Assembly: GCA_902805535.1 (NCBI GenBank) | Contig: CADCTN010000230.1 | Coordinates: 1-51,721 of the forward strand | Direction: 5' to 3' | Origin: an uncultured Blastococcus sp. | GTDB lineage: Bacteria; Actinomycetota; Actinomycetes; Mycobacteriales; Geodermatophilaceae | Length of the DNA: 51,721 bases | In this document: positions 6,301 to 25,107 of the stretch, in pieces | Numbering within the stretch: the first letter of the stretch is position 1 | Layout: each line of letters opens with the position of its first letter | Program-made: the position numbers and the translations under genes | The notes under the pieces: model-generated | What the model was told of the DNA's origin: nothing | What the model saw: only the letters and a program-made list of their open reading frames with translations | Databases searched by the model: none

Positions 6301-6947
6301 ACGGTGACGACCATGGCGTCGGCCGTGCGCAGCGTCTCCAGCAGACCCGGGTCCACGGTGCGCAGGCTGGCGGTGAACACCGGCAGCGCCTGCCCGCCGG
6401 CCTCCTCGATCGCGGTGCAGAGCGCCTCGACGAAGGCGGTGTTCCCGGCCAGGTGGTGCGCCCGGTAGTAGAGGACAGCGACCGTCGGGCCCTCCGTGGT
6501 GCGGGAACGGCGGGACAGCACTCCCCAGTCGGGGGCCACCGAGGGCGGCTGGAAACCCTCGCCGGTGAGCAGCGTCGTGTCGGACAGGAAACGGTGCAGC
6601 TGGACGGGGTTGTCGGGCCCACCCTGGGCGAGGTAGCCGTGCGCCTCGGTGGCGACGCCCATCGGGACCGTGGAGAGCTCCATCAGCTCGGCGTCGGGGA
6701 GCTGCTCTCCACCCAGGACCACGACCGGTGCAGGACCGGCCAGCAGCGGCGCGAGCAGCTCCTCGTACTGGCGACGCACGCCCAGGATCCGCACGACGAC
6801 CAACGCGCTGCCCTCGACGAGCGTCGCGACGCCGGCGTCGTCGAGACGGGCGGGGTTGCCGAGCCGCCAGGCCGCGCCGCTGGCGCGGGCCGACAGCAGG
6901 TCGGTGTCGCTGGTGGACAACAGGGAGAAGACGGGCTGGTCGCTCAC
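3330..6947 (-). CDS. cobN: Cobaltochelatase large subunit CobN
   Basis: A 1205-residue ChlH/BchH/CobN-family subunit, full length for the family. It binds hydrogenobyrinic acid a,c-diamide and inserts Co(II), using ATP hydrolysed by an AAA+ partner. The family motif HGNLEWLPGK lies near residue 520, and CobN-like sequence runs end to end. The partner is likely the ChlI/ChlD fusion at 17009, since no cobS/cobT pair is visible. The GTG start at 6947 has GAGTGAGG seven bases upstream and follows a cobalamin riboswitch, so expression should fall when adenosylcobalamin is high. It ends tail to tail with the SpoIIE gene, the two stop codons overlapping, with no room for a terminator. Confidence 0.95.
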   Translation of the reverse strand: MSDQPVFSLLSTSDTDLLSARASGAAWRLGNPARLDDAGVATLVEGSALVVVRILGVRRQYEELLAPLLAGPAPVVVLGGEQLPDAELMELSTVPMGVATEAHGYLAQGGPDNPVQLHRFLSDTTLLTGEGFQPPSVAPDWGVLSRRSRTTEGPTVAVLYYRAHHLAGNTAFVEALCTAIEEAGGQALPVFTASLRTVDPGLLETLRTADAMVVTVLAAGGSRPATAQAGGDDGAWDVGELAALDIPVIQGLCLTSSREVWAANDDGLSPLDVGNQVAIPEFDGRLISVPFSFKEIDADGLTSYVADPERAARVAGTAVAHARLRHTPPAQRRIVVMLSAYPTKHARIGNAVGLDTPASVVRLLAAMAGQGYDIGPFDGPGALPGVAGLDGDALVHALIAAGGQDADWLTSEQLEGNPVRIGPSEYRAFFATLPADLREAVEEHWGPAPGSLFVDESDGAIVFAALRAGNVVVMVQPPRGFGENPIAIYHDPDLPPSHHYLAAYWWLRSVFGAHAMVHVGKHGNLEWLPGKTVGMSASCGPDAALGDLPLVYPFLVNDPGEGSQAKRRAHATLVDHMVPPMARADSYGDIARLEQLLDEHANVAAMDPAKLPAVRAQIWTLLQAAKLDHDLGLADRPEDDHFDEMILHVDGWLCEIKDSQIRDGLHVLGSPPSGRNRVDLVLAILRARQIWGGSVALPGLREALGLTEDGTAGRQATDDVEARAETLVEGMEARGWTADAVPEVVSEVLGRSDEAVEAVLRFAVDEVVPRLDRTTDELDATLHALEGGYVPAGPSGSPLRGLVNVLPTGRNFYSVDPRAVPSRLAWETGQAMAESLLDRYRADTGGYPRSVGLSVWGTSAMRTSGDDVAEVLALLGVRPVWDDASRRITGLEPIPPAELGRPRIDVTVRISGFFRDAFPHVVTMLDDAVTMVAGLAEPDEQNYVKAHVDADEATHGDRRRATTRVFGSKPGAYGAGLLSLIDSRNWRGDADLAEVYAVWGGYAYGRDLDGVQARPDMEAAYKRIAVAAKNVDTREHDIADSDDYFQYHGGMVASVRALTGRAPAAYIGDSTRPESVRTRSLSEETARVFRARVVNPKWLAAMRRHGYKGAFELAATVDYLFGYDATTGVVADWMYEKLAQTYVLDAENREFMEKSNPWALHGIAERLLEAVDRKMWAEPDPALLAELQQAYLDTEGELEGSGTTV

Positions 6948-6979
6948 AGCGCTACCTCACTCGGGGTCCGCGCCCCGGG

Positions 6980-7082
6980 TCGACGGGCACGGCAGCCGGA
7001 GTGTCTGGCTCGCCCGGTCACCCGGGCTCACAGTGGCGGGACCGCGCCGGACTCGCACCGGCTTCCTCGCTGACTGACGTGA
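6980..7082 (-). promoter_or_regulatory. Cobalamin riboswitch in the cobN leader
   Basis: Read on the minus strand, the leader holds the conserved cobalamin riboswitch core in order: GGAAGCCGGTG (7066-7056), GCGGTCCCGCCACTGTG (7045-7029) and the B12-box-like GAGCCAGACAC (7011-7001). These features are diagnostic of the class. It sits 33 bases before the cobN start, so it most likely controls translation or elongation into cobN in response to adenosylcobalamin. The outer limits are approximate. Confidence 0.9.
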
Positions 7083-16815: not shown

Positions 16816-16844
16816 CGGCGGGCGGGCCGGCGTGATGTCATAGC

Positions 16845-16990
16845 CGCGCCACACGCGACGGCAGTGGAGGAAGCCCGGTGAGATTCCGGCGCGGTCCCGC
16901 CACTGTGAGCCGGCTCTGCCGGTGAGTCAGGAACTCCAGCCGTCGTCCCTGCCACCTCCGGGCGTGGACACCCGGGGAGAGGACGCGTGT
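16845..16990 (+). promoter_or_regulatory. Cobalamin riboswitch in the leader of the chelatase/transport operon
   Basis: The core is GGAAGCCCGGTG (16869-16880), GCGGTCCCGCCACTGTGA (16891-16908) and B12-box-like GTGAGTCAGGAACTCC (16922-16937). Downstream, CCGGG (16957-16961) and CCCGG (16970-16974) can pair across eight bases next to the purine-rich GGGGAGAGGA, which looks like an expression platform that can hide a ribosome site. It heads the ten-gene operon to 26306. Confidence 0.9.
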
Positions 16991-16991
16991 T

Positions 16992-17012
16992 ATGCACGGA
17001 TCCCCCGCGTGA
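16992..17012 (+). CDS. Candidate 6-codon upstream ORF in the riboswitch leader
   Basis: ATG at 16992 is preceded by GAGGA (16979-16983) with an ideal eight-base spacer and encodes MHGSPA, then TGA at 17010-17012. The TGA overlaps the GTG (17009-17011) of the chelatase gene as GTGA, the same junction used between many genes here. The chelatase GTG itself has no well-placed SD. Termination-reinitiation is inferred, not shown. Confidence 0.4.
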
Positions 17013-19060
17013 CCTATCCCTTCGGGGCCGTCGTCGGCATGGACGACATGCGACTGGCCCTGCTGCTCAATGCGGTCTCCCCCGCCGTCGGGGGCGTGCT
17101 GGTGCGCGGCGAGAAGGGCACGGCGAAATCGACCACGGTGCGGGCTCTGGCCGCGGTCCTGCCGGCGGTCGCCGTCGTACCCGGTTGCCGGTTCGCCTGC
17201 GACCCGGCGGCGCCGGACCCCGACTGCCCGGACGGACCACACGATGCCGACGCGGCGGGACGGACGCGTCCGGCCCGGTTGGTGGAGCTGCCGGTCGGGG
17301 CCACCGAGGACCGGGTCGTCGGGGCCCTCGACCTCGAACGGGCGCTCACGGAGGGCGTCAAGGCTTTCGAGCCCGGCCTGCTCGCCGCCGCCCACCGCGG
17401 CGTCCTCTACGTGGACGAGGTCAACCTGCTCCACGACCACCTGGTCGACCTCCTCCTGGACGCGGCCGCACTGGGCCGGGCCTACGTCGAGCGCGAGGGC
17501 GTCTCGGTGCGGCACGCTGCCCGGTTCCTGCTCGTCGGGACGATGAACCCCGAGGAGGGCGAGCTCCGTCCCCAGCTGCTGGACCGGTTCGGTCTCACGG
17601 TCGAGGTGAGCGCACCGCGGGATCCCGTACAGCGGGCCGAGGTCGTGCGCCGGCGGTTCGCCTACGACGCCGACCCCTCCGGGTTCGCGGACAGCTGGGC
17701 GATGCAGGAGGCGGAGCTGGCCGCGCGCATCGCCGACGCCCGCGCGCGCCTGCCGCACGTCGTGCTCTCCGACGGCGCGCTGCGCCAGGTGACGTCGGTC
17801 TGCGCAGCGTTCGACGTGGACGGCCTGCGCGCCGACATCGTCACCGCACGCGCGGCGATCGCGCACGCCGCGTGGAACGGCCGCGATGCCGTCACCGAGG
17901 ACGACGTCCGGGTCGCCGCCCGGCTGGCGCTGCCCCACCGCCGGCGCAGGAACCCCTTCGATGCACCGGGCCTTGACGAGGACACGCTCGAGCAGGCCCT
18001 GTCCGACGCGCGGCCGGACGGCGGCGACCCCGCTGACGGCGACCCCGGTGACGGCCCGGACGGCCCGGACGGCCCGGACGGCGGGGACCCACCTCCAGGC
18101 TCCGGCCCGTCGGCAGACGGCAGTACCCAGGAGACCCCGGGCGCCGACGCCGGTACCGAGGCGCCGTCTCCCTCGAGCGCGCCCCGCGGTGCGGGAGCCG
18201 GTTCCACCGAAGCCGGCGCCGCGCCCGAGCGGGCCGCGGTCGCGCCGTCGGATCCGTTCCGCACCCGGCGGCTGGAGGTACCCGGCATCGGTGGGGGCGC
18301 GGCGGGCCGCCGCTCGCGCGCCCGCTCCGAGCGCGGCCGGGTGGTGGGCTCGACCCGTCCCTCCGGCACCGTCACGAGACTGCACCTGACCGACACCGTG
18401 CTCGCCGCCGCACCGCACCAGCGGGCCCGCGGACGGACGGGGCCGCGGCTGCGGGTCCGGCGGGAGGACTTCCGCCAGGCCACGCTGGAGGGACGCGAGG
18501 GCAATCTCGTCCTCTTCGCCGTCGACGCCAGCGGCTCGATGGGCGCCCGGGCGCGGATGGGTGCGGTGAAGGGCGCCGTCCTCTCCCTGCTGCTCGACGC
18601 CTACCAGCGGCGGGACAAGGTCGGACTCGTGACCTTCCGCGGAGCGGGCGCCGACCTGGCACTGCCGCCCACCTGGTCCGTGGAGACAGCTGCCGCCCGG
18701 CTCACCGGGCTGACCACAGGCGGCCGCACCCCGCTGGCCGCCGGGCTGCTGCGCGCCCATGAGGTGCTGCGGGTGGAGCGCATACGCGACCCGCAGCGGC
18801 GGCCACTGCTCGTCGTCGTCACCGACGGCCGGGCCACCGGGACCAGGGGCGGCACCCCGCTGGCCGATGCCCACGCCGCCGCGGGCCTGGTGGCCTCGGC
18901 CGGGGTGGCGAGTGTCGTCGTCGACTGCGAGACCGGCCCCGTCCGGCTCGGACTCGCCGGCACGCTGGGCGCCCTCCTCGGCGGTCCGACGCTCGGCATG
19001 GCGGACCTGGCCGCCGAGAGCCTCGCCGCGACGGTCCGCAGCGCCCGGAAGGTGGCCTGA
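17009..19060 (+). CDS. ChlI/ChlD-type chelatase AAA+ / VWA fusion subunit (putative cobaltochelatase)
   Basis: A 683-residue fusion. Residues 1-320 are an AAA+ ATPase (Walker A GEKGTAKS near 34-41, Walker [11 protein letters not shown] near 131-140). About 330-470 is a low-complexity Asp/Gly/Pro- and Ala/Ser-rich linker, and from about 500 there is a VWA domain with MIDAS motif VDASGSM. It most likely energises cobalt insertion with CobN in place of CobS/CobT. A Mg-chelatase role is unlikely because no bacteriochlorophyll gene is near. The start GTG 17009 places [12 protein letters not shown] at the family N-terminus; longer in-frame starts run into the riboswitch. It is one base from cobO. 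Confidence 0.88.
18052..18087 (+). repeat. Nine-base tandem repeat in the chelatase linker
   Basis: CGGCCCGGA occurs three times in tandem (18052-18078), followed by the variant CGGCGGGGA. It encodes the repeated Gly-Pro-Asp linker segment. In-frame repeat units allow length change without frameshift. Confidence 0.8.
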
Positions 19061-21076: not shown

Positions 21077-21752
21077 GGGGTTCCTGCCGCCGGCGCACGC
21101 GATCGGCTGGACGCTCGCCGCCGCCCCCTTCGTCGTGCACGGCGCCCGGGCGGTGGTGAAGGAGGTCCGCGAGCACCCCGAGGCAACGCTGTTGCTCGGC
21201 GCGGCCGGCGCGTTCACGTTCGTGCTGAGCGCCATCAAACTGCCGTCGATCACCGGCAGCTCCAGCCACCCGACCGGCACCGGCGTCGGCGCGATCCTCT
21301 TCCGGCCACCGGTGATGGCGCTGCTCGGCACCGTCGTCCTGCTGTTCCAGGCCCTGCTCCTGGCCCACGGCGGGCTGACCACCCTGGGCGCCAACGCGTT
21401 CTCGCTGGCGATCGTCGGCCCCTGGGTCGGATACGGCGCCTACCGGCTCACCCGCGCGCTGGGCGGGGACCTGCTGCCCGGCGTCTTCGCCGGGATGGCG
21501 CTGGCCGACCTGGCGACCTATCTGACGACGTCCGTACAGCTGGCGCTGGCCTTCCCCGACGCCGGGAGCGGGTTCACCGGGGCGCTGGTCAAGTTCCTCG
21601 GCGTCTTCGCCGTCACCCAGATCCCGCTGGCGATCGGCGAGGGACTCCTCGGCGTGCTGCTGTTCCGCGTGCTGGTGACCAACGCCCGCCCCGACCTGGA
21701 GCGGCTCGGCGTACTCCCGGTCCGGCCGGCCGAGCCGGAGGAGGCCCGGTGA
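21063..21752 (+). CDS. cbiM: Cobalt ECF transporter substrate-specificity subunit CbiM
   Basis: A 229-residue polytopic membrane protein. The extreme N-terminus [13 protein letters not shown] carries the conserved His2 used for metal binding in CbiM/NikM, and [11 protein letters not shown] supplies a second conserved His. With CbiN, CbiQ and CbiO it forms the energy-coupling-factor cobalt importer. It overlaps cobB by 14 bases and cbiN by four. Nickel specificity cannot be excluded from sequence alone, but the cob context favours cobalt. Confidence 0.94.
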
Positions 21753-24064: not shown

Positions 24065-25107
24065 CCGACCTCCACCACCACGGCGACGCGGAGCTGGCGC
24101 CGGGCCTGGTCGATCTCGCCGTCAACGTGCGCGCAGGTGCCCCTCCGGCCTGGCTGCGCGCCGAGCTGCACGCGGCCGTCGACGCCTCGGCCGCCTATCC
24201 GGACCCGGCGCCGGCCCGCGCCGCGGTCGCCGCCGCCCACGGTCGCTGCCCGGACGAGGTGCTGCTCACCGCGGGTGCGGCCGAGACGTTCGTCCTCGTC
24301 GCCCGCGCGCTGCGGCCGCGCCTCGCCGCCGTCGTGCACCCCTCCTTCACCGAGCCGGAGGCCGCACTGCGGGCCGCCGGGCACCCGGTCACCCGCGTCG
24401 TCCTCCAGGCCCGGGACGGCTGGCGGCTGCAGCCGTCCGCTGTGCCCGAGGAGGCCGACCTCGTCGTGCTCGGCAATCCGACCAACCCCACGTCGGTCCT
24501 TCACCGGGCGGCCGACGTCGCTGCCCTGGCCCGGCCCGGTCGAGTGCTCGTCGTCGACGAGGCCTTCGCCGACACGGTTCCCGGCGAGCCGGAGTCCCTC
24601 GCTGCCCGGCGGGACCTCCCGGGGCTGGTCGTCGTCCGCAGTCTCACGAAGACCTGGGGCCTGGCCGGCCTGCGGGTGGGCTACGCGCTCGGCCACGCAC
24701 CGCTGATGGCGCGGCTCGCGGCCCAGCAACCGCACTGGCCGGTGTCGACACCGGCGCTCGCGGCGCTGGTCGCGTGCACGACGCAGAGCGCTCGCGCCGA
24801 GGCCGGCGACGCTGCCCACCTCCTCGACCACTGGCGGGAAGCCCTGGTGGAGAGGCTGCCGTCCTCCGTGACCGTGGAGGGACGGCCGCGTTCGTCGTTC
24901 GTCCTGCTCCGGGTTCCCGACGGCACGCGGGTGCGGGCCGAGCTCCGGGAACGAGGCTGGGCGGTGCGCCGCGGGGACACGTTTCCCGGCCTGACGGGTG
25001 ACCACCTGCGCGTGGCCGTGCGTGAGCCCGCCGTCTCGCGGGCTTTCGCCGCCGCCCTCACCGACGTCCTGCACCCCGTCCCCACGTCGTCGGAGGAGAT
25101 CGCGTGA
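24052..25107 (+). CDS. cobC: PLP-dependent aminotransferase-like CobC (threonine-phosphate decarboxylase type)
   Basis: A 351-residue fold-type I PLP protein of the histidinol-phosphate aminotransferase family. The PLP lysine is in SLTKTWGLAGLRVGYALG near residue 200, and GNPTNPTS and VVDEAFADT are the usual cofactor motifs. In cob clusters it supplies aminopropanol phosphate from L-threonine phosphate for CobD. GTG 24052 has GGGAG seven bases upstream; GTG 24061 would give a GTGA junction with cobE. The stop overlaps cobA. Confidence 0.87.
   Translation: MDAVTDLHHHGDAELAPGLVDLAVNVRAGAPPAWLRAELHAAVDASAAYPDPAPARAAVAAAHGRCPDEVLLTAGAAETFVLVARALRPRLAAVVHPSFTEPEAALRAAGHPVTRVVLQARDGWRLQPSAVPEEADLVVLGNPTNPTSVLHRAADVAALARPGRVLVVDEAFADTVPGEPESLAARRDLPGLVVVRSLTKTWGLAGLRVGYALGHAPLMARLAAQQPHWPVSTPALAALVACTTQSARAEAGDAAHLLDHWREALVERLPSSVTVEGRPRSSFVLLRVPDGTRVRAELRERGWAVRRGDTFPGLTGDHLRVAVREPAVSRAFAAALTDVLHPVPTSSEEIA

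Follow-up and report, generated by a model that had tools for sequence, protein, structure and literature searches.

A 51,721-nucleotide (nt) stretch of DNA from an uncultured Blastococcus sp. (contig CADCTN010000230.1 of assembly GCA_902805535.1), referred to here as the window, carries a cobalamin riboswitch upstream of a gene for a chelatase subunit. Between the two lies a six-codon open reading frame (ORF), MHGSPA*, at positions 16992–17012 of the forward strand. We consider it probable, at roughly 85%, that this mini-ORF is a sequence-indifferent adapter cistron and the direct target of the riboswitch, which would load ribosomes at the riboswitch Shine-Dalgarno (SD) sequence and pass them to the chelatase gene by termination–reinitiation. 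The evidence is mainly comparative. The alignment of related leaders, proposed as a check in an earlier note on this DNA, showed that the start, the frame and the overlap with the gene are kept in every leader of the same build and that the peptide is not.

The mini-ORF and its conservation in the family

The riboswitch aptamer (adenosylcobalamin type; 16842–16958, forward strand) was matched by two Rfam covariance models, RF01482 at 16856–16945 (56.1 bits, above the gathering score of 50) and RF00174 at 16842–16958 (41 bits), and contains the L5 loop GUCC at 16894–16897 and the B12 box at 16925–16932. One or the other model also matched in all 20 relatives' leaders submitted to the Rfam search. 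A predicted expression-platform hairpin, recognized by its fold and its motif, spans 16950–16985 on the same strand (−15.0 kcal/mol; GGGG and some of the AGAGG bases are paired), and its 3' arm holds the SD sequence GGGGAGAGGA (16974–16983). The hairpin loop contains GGAC at 16966–16969, which is complementary to the L5 GUCC as read from the sequence, and a kissing loop between L5 and L13 is proposed. An automatic search for the P13 stem chose other stems in many loci, and only the letters of L5 and of the loop were used for this comparison. In one leader read by eye (L236), GUCGG in L5 and CCGAC in the loop replace GUCC and GGAC, a paired change that would preserve the kissing loop.

Within the SD sequence, GAGGA (16979–16983) is followed after an 8-nt spacer by the start codon of the mini-ORF (16992–16994), which reads ATG CAC GGA TCC CCC GCG TGA and stops at 17010–17012. 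The stop codon overlaps the chelatase start codon GTG (17009–17011) as GTGA (17009–17012, forward strand). This arrangement had been described in the earlier note and was confirmed in the sequence, as was the recurrence of the same junction between downstream genes, with GTGA joining listed ORFs at 21749–21752 and 25104–25107. The chelatase gene (17009–19060, forward strand) is the first large gene past the riboswitch and encodes a subunit of the ChlI/ChlD type with AAA and VWA regions (Pfam AAA_lid_2, VWA_2 and Mg_chelatase). A further GTG at 16987, located 3 nt past GAGGA and 7 nt past GGAG, opens an ORF of 329 amino acids in the third frame.

A total of 112 genomes of the window's family were searched, and the leaders of all 94 with a chelatase match were read. 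By inference, this family (f1) is the Geodermatophilaceae: the leaders of G016 and G126 match those of L041, a Blastococcus record, and L048, a Modestobacter record, and these two genera are placed in the Geodermatophilaceae. Every one of the 94 leaders contained the GAGGA SD and a B12-box motif, and the aligned first codon of the chelatase was ATG, GTG or TTG in all of them, including L176 after its gene start was shifted by one base by hand where the alignment crosses an indel. In that locus (G076), the chelatase match begins only at residue 40–44 and the extrapolated start is one base off, which points either to an indel close to the N-terminus or to a fault in the assembly.

The distance from the end of the SD to the gene was bimodal, with 6–15 nt in 48 leaders (short), 23–33 nt in 46 (long) and none at 16–22 nt. 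All 46 long leaders had a start codon 6–11 nt past the SD from which the first stop was a TGA overlapping the gene start (NTGA). Shuffling of the spacer letters gave an expectation of 3.46 such mini-ORFs among the 46, a null that is optimistic and overstates independence because the 94 leaders, the 46 long ones among them, are related. Since 46 were observed where 3.46 were expected, the sequence comparison indicates that the mini-ORF is not a product of chance. No mini-ORF starting 5–11 nt past the SD was found in any of the 48 short leaders. The mini-ORFs of the long leaders started with GTG (28) or ATG (18) and were six (41), seven (1) or nine (4) codons long. The spacing from the SD to the mini-ORF took every value from 6 to 11 nt, and the distance from the mini-ORF start to the gene start was only 17, 20 or 26 nt (17 in 41 of the 46), always in the NTGA register. 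Free spacing before the mini-ORF together with a length fixed modulo three is what selection on the reading frame would predict, and not what selection on spacing only would predict.

Conservation did not extend to the encoded product. The 46 mini-ORFs comprised 36 DNA versions and 32 peptides; across the 36 sequences, the first base of the start codon was only A or G, and its TG and the terminal TGA were invariant. The earlier note had suggested that the riboswitch controls a tiny leader peptide and that the downstream genes start by termination–reinitiation. The comparison supports the control of a tiny cistron and the coupled start, whereas "leader peptide" is a misleading label because the peptide sequence is unconserved. 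The same variability bears on a peptide-sensing attenuator, in which the peptide or its codons would stall the ribosome and so regulate the operon. Many of the peptides contain two or three arginines, and all 41 six-codon mini-ORFs have CNC as their second codon (16995–16997 in the window), with a variable amino acid. Against 32 different peptides in 46 loci, others in other families, and a riboswitch that already supplies the sensing, an attenuator appears highly improbable.

A base-count error in the draft assembly was also considered, in which ATG 16992 would truly be in the chelatase frame and one C of the CCCCC run would be missing. One extra C in the run would indeed fuse the two frames, and the draft consists of 242 contigs with 84.94% completeness. 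This explanation, together with frameshift or assembly error in general, was refuted by the relatives and is left with a negligible probability: the offset of the long leaders given above is never a multiple of three, and L003, a near relative with 97% identity in the first 230 amino acids, encodes MRGYPA* in the same register.

Starts available to the chelatase gene and the proposed mechanism

The platform was compared between the two classes of leaders. Its motif, ACACCCGGGGAGAGGA, was found in all 48 short leaders and in 44 of the 46 long ones, which suggests that the switch itself has hardly changed between the classes, and the predicted duplex between the platform SD and the anti-SD was about −10.3 kcal/mol in both. 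The gene starts differed. Pairing with the anti-SD at −20 to −5 of the gene start averaged −2.69 kcal/mol in long leaders versus −10.41 kcal/mol in short ones, and was better than −4 kcal/mol in only 2 of the 46 long leaders; the chelatase genes behind long leaders are without a gene-proximal SD. In all 46, the platform SD was correctly spaced to the out-of-frame upstream ORF (uORF) and not to the gene.

A strong SD for the mini-ORF and none for the gene would also be compatible with an inhibitory uORF, which captures ribosomes and dampens chelatase expression in the manner of the M. tuberculosis metE uORF; a suppressing uORF behind a B12 riboswitch is known, according to the text of the ppe2 report discussed below (PMC11260477). 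A decoy of this kind would not have to end precisely at the start codon, as all 46 do, and it would leave the gene without a good start site of its own. We regard it as very unlikely.

Alternatively, the chelatase could start directly at an in-frame codon near the SD, the mini-ORF being accidental. Two codons were candidates. One is GTG 16964, which the earlier note had named as the start whose use would speak against the mini-ORF; in the window this codon is in frame and open. The same holds for its equivalents in 20 of the 46 long leaders and 17 of the 48 short ones, and elsewhere the equivalent is out of frame or absent (31 of the 48 short leaders). GTG 16964 lies ahead of the SD, within the proposed kissing loop, and with a frame that varies in this way it was rejected as a conserved start. 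The other is a start codon 3 nt past GAGGA (7 nt past GGAG), which in the long leaders was in the chelatase frame in 13, in another frame in 17 and absent in 16. No in-frame start was found between the SD and the gene in 31 of the 46 long leaders, and an accidental mini-ORF would not hold its register in 46 of 46. A direct start is thus an unlikely explanation for the long leaders.

From these comparisons we infer translation of the mini-ORF, termination–reinitiation and an OFF response of both the mini-ORF and the chelatase. In the proposed mechanism, the platform SD would be free without B12, and a ribosome would start at ATG 16992, read six codons, terminate at TGA 17010–17012 and reinitiate on the overlapping chelatase GTG 17009. 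With adenosylcobalamin bound, the L5–L13 kissing contact would stabilize the hairpin holding the SD, and the mini-ORF and chelatase would be switched off together. The peptide would be irrelevant; the start codon, the length modulo three and the NTGA junction would matter. A minor frameshifted fusion product may also be made, as reported for ppe2.

Several observations weigh against the adapter reading or limit it. The 20-nt border between long and short leaders was fixed after the distribution was known. The NTGA junction alone is cheap, being present in 39 of 48 short leaders as well, and 16 of the 48 short leaders have an ORF of 3–4 codons that starts 3 nt past GAGGA and runs to the gene start. 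The in-frame GTG 3 nt past GAGGA in 13 long leaders could start a longer chelatase. Whole-leader and platform folds were no more stable than shuffled sequences (z = −0.41 and −0.49). In the window fold, GTG 17009 is predicted to be paired and ATG 16992 open; across the family, folding made the mini-ORF start more accessible than the gene start in only 22 of 46 long leaders, and it is not claimed that translation of the mini-ORF melts a buried gene start. Mapped onto a tree of the chelatase gene, the two leader states require nine changes, of which well-supported branches force only one, with one secure independent pair. Because the branches within the family force only this one change, the best argument for a repeated origin of the mini-ORF comes from other families and not from the change count inside this one.

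The tiny ORFs of the short leaders were observed in 15 of the 17 leaders of genus g7 (L015, L016, L142–L146, L148, L149, L152, L154, L155, L157, L161 and L164) and in one of g5 (L174), with stops at +1 in 13 and at −2 in three and peptides such as VVYP*, VVSS*, VLS* and VVC*. These leaders were classed as direct because the gene itself lies 11–14 nt from the SD. The tiny ORFs may be shrunken adapters or accidents.

Other cobalamin riboswitch leaders

The window contains a second cobalamin riboswitch on the reverse strand (6999–7068; RF00174, 43.2 bits), followed without a mini-ORF by the direct start GTG 6945–6947 of a CobN-type gene (Pfam CobN-Mg_chel, PF02514); the whole element spans 6945–7068. 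The cobN leaders of 30 of the 89 genomes with a match were read as an internal control. The platform motif was present in 28, all with direct starts, and no NTGA uORF was found in these 28. Of the 28 direct cobN leaders, 27 came from genomes whose chelatase leader is long and carries the mini-ORF. The two cobN leaders lacking the platform motif were both in genomes of the short class.

A wider survey covered 135 loci, 55 of the order and 80 from named records. The B12-box motif was found at −135 to −45 in 46 of them, and the other 89 were left uncounted. Two of the 46 (L041 and L048) are members of the window's family, and the remaining 44 were tallied. Direct starts were found in 26 of the 44. 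In nine, an NTGA uORF was the only ORF spaced to the SD (L206, L207, L210, L218, L221 and L232 in f10, L215 in f13, L029 in f5, and L073, which is Catenuloplanes japonicus of the Micromonosporaceae). Three more loci of f13 (L030, L217 and L225) had an NTGA uORF beside an in-frame GTG 15 nt from the SD, and two (L062 and L238) were ambiguous, being uORF-like with a second SD that gives a direct start. The remaining four (L193, L214, L224 and L230) were neither direct nor uORF, with no SD detected in three, and these count against the adapter reading.

The uORFs outside the family were 8–14 codons long, and their peptides do not resemble the ones found in the window's family. Shuffling over 11 of the 12 loci with an NTGA uORF, alone or beside the in-frame GTG, gave 1.24 expected; these loci had been picked for having a uORF and exclude L073. 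The uORF arrangement is thus present in at least three other families, identified by codes that cannot be matched with names. Taken with the survey of the window's family, we lean towards the view that adapter cistrons are a recurrent element of B12 riboswitches in actinobacteria, and one that can evolve. The switch and its SD would stay fixed while the gene start drifts, and an ORF of 6–14 codons would be gained or lost to span the resulting distance. What the riboswitch directly controls would then be a cistron whose product is irrelevant, and lineages would toggle between direct and adapter control of the same chelatase gene.

In three loci of f16 (L208, L209 and L186), a repeated intergenic block, GTGAGCGCGAGGAGTGAGCC...CGCAGTCGCGAAC, or parts of it, was seen by eye upstream of the chelatase, with no B12 box seen there. 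The block could itself form small coupled ORFs.

Known systems and neighboring features

A B12 riboswitch of M. tuberculosis already provides a described example of the general arrangement, and the window presents a shorter, recurrent variant of it. According to the text of Kipkorir et al. (2024, PMC11260477), the riboswitch of ppe2 controls a uORF, uPPE2, and reporters support termination–reinitiation. The ppe2 gene has no obvious SD and shares AUGA with the out-of-frame uORF; its expression is lost when the SD or start codon of the uORF is destroyed and falls when the stop codon is moved. The uORF is made mainly as a separate peptide, together with the minor fusion. The earlier note's statement that no such arrangement was described therefore holds only narrowly.

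As far as the ppe2 system is described in that text, the window shares with it, as predicted features, a compact translational OFF switch of the Class IIb kind and an SD hairpin with a proposed L5–L13 kissing contact, and also an SD serving an out-of-frame uORF, a uORF stop overlapping the gene start, and a gene without an obvious SD. The two differ in the target (ppe2-cobQ(U) there, the chelatase gene here) and in the length of the uORF (6.3 kDa with a FLAG tag there, 6–9 codons here). The M. tuberculosis uORF is called partially conserved, whereas the register and overlap are kept in all the long leaders here and alternate with direct starts. The ppe2 arrangement was studied with reporters, that of the window by sequence comparison.

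A second actinobacterial riboswitch whose direct target is a small upstream ORF, again by way of a translational platform, is the M. tuberculosis Mbox (Mg2+) riboswitch, with the uORF rv1805A before pe20, as presented in the text of PMC12810186. Its ligand is different, its uORF encodes a highly conserved protein that has a homologue elsewhere, and overlap or reinitiation is not mentioned in that text. Delivery of ribosomes by a short ORF to a coupled gene is a function proposed in the text of a recent review (PMC12548453), where MIRU insertions with a −4 nt coupling junction and the bicistronic design resemble the window's case and riboswitches are unmentioned.

Among the open-licence papers listed by the literature searches, work on B12-riboswitch uORFs was recognized for M. 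tuberculosis only, and no riboswitch literature on the Geodermatophilaceae was found. No description was found there of ORFs this short, of a frame kept while the peptide varies, of mini-ORF and direct starts alternating downstream of a switch that hardly changes, or of recurrence across several families. These features suggest that ppe2 is one instance of a recurrent riboswitch–gene wiring, with cistrons down to six codons, and not a curiosity of M. tuberculosis. They make testable the minimum ORF length that still passes a ribosome by reinitiation in nature, and nature already supplies leaders that have the adapter and leaders that lack it behind the same switch, ready to be compared. Annotations of these genomes may be wrong about gene starts and about the targets of riboswitches.

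The ORF upstream of the chelatase leader is of the CobB/CobQ amidotransferase type by Pfam. The downstream ORFs tested in the same way comprise another of the CobB/CobQ type, CbiM, an ABC ATPase, an aminotransferase and a tetrapyrrole methylase. In locus L180, a third cobalamin riboswitch-like match (37.6 bits, below the RF01482 cut-off) was observed at 1501–1900 of contig C1 in its own genome, where it precedes a gene for an apparent lipoprotein substrate-binding protein.
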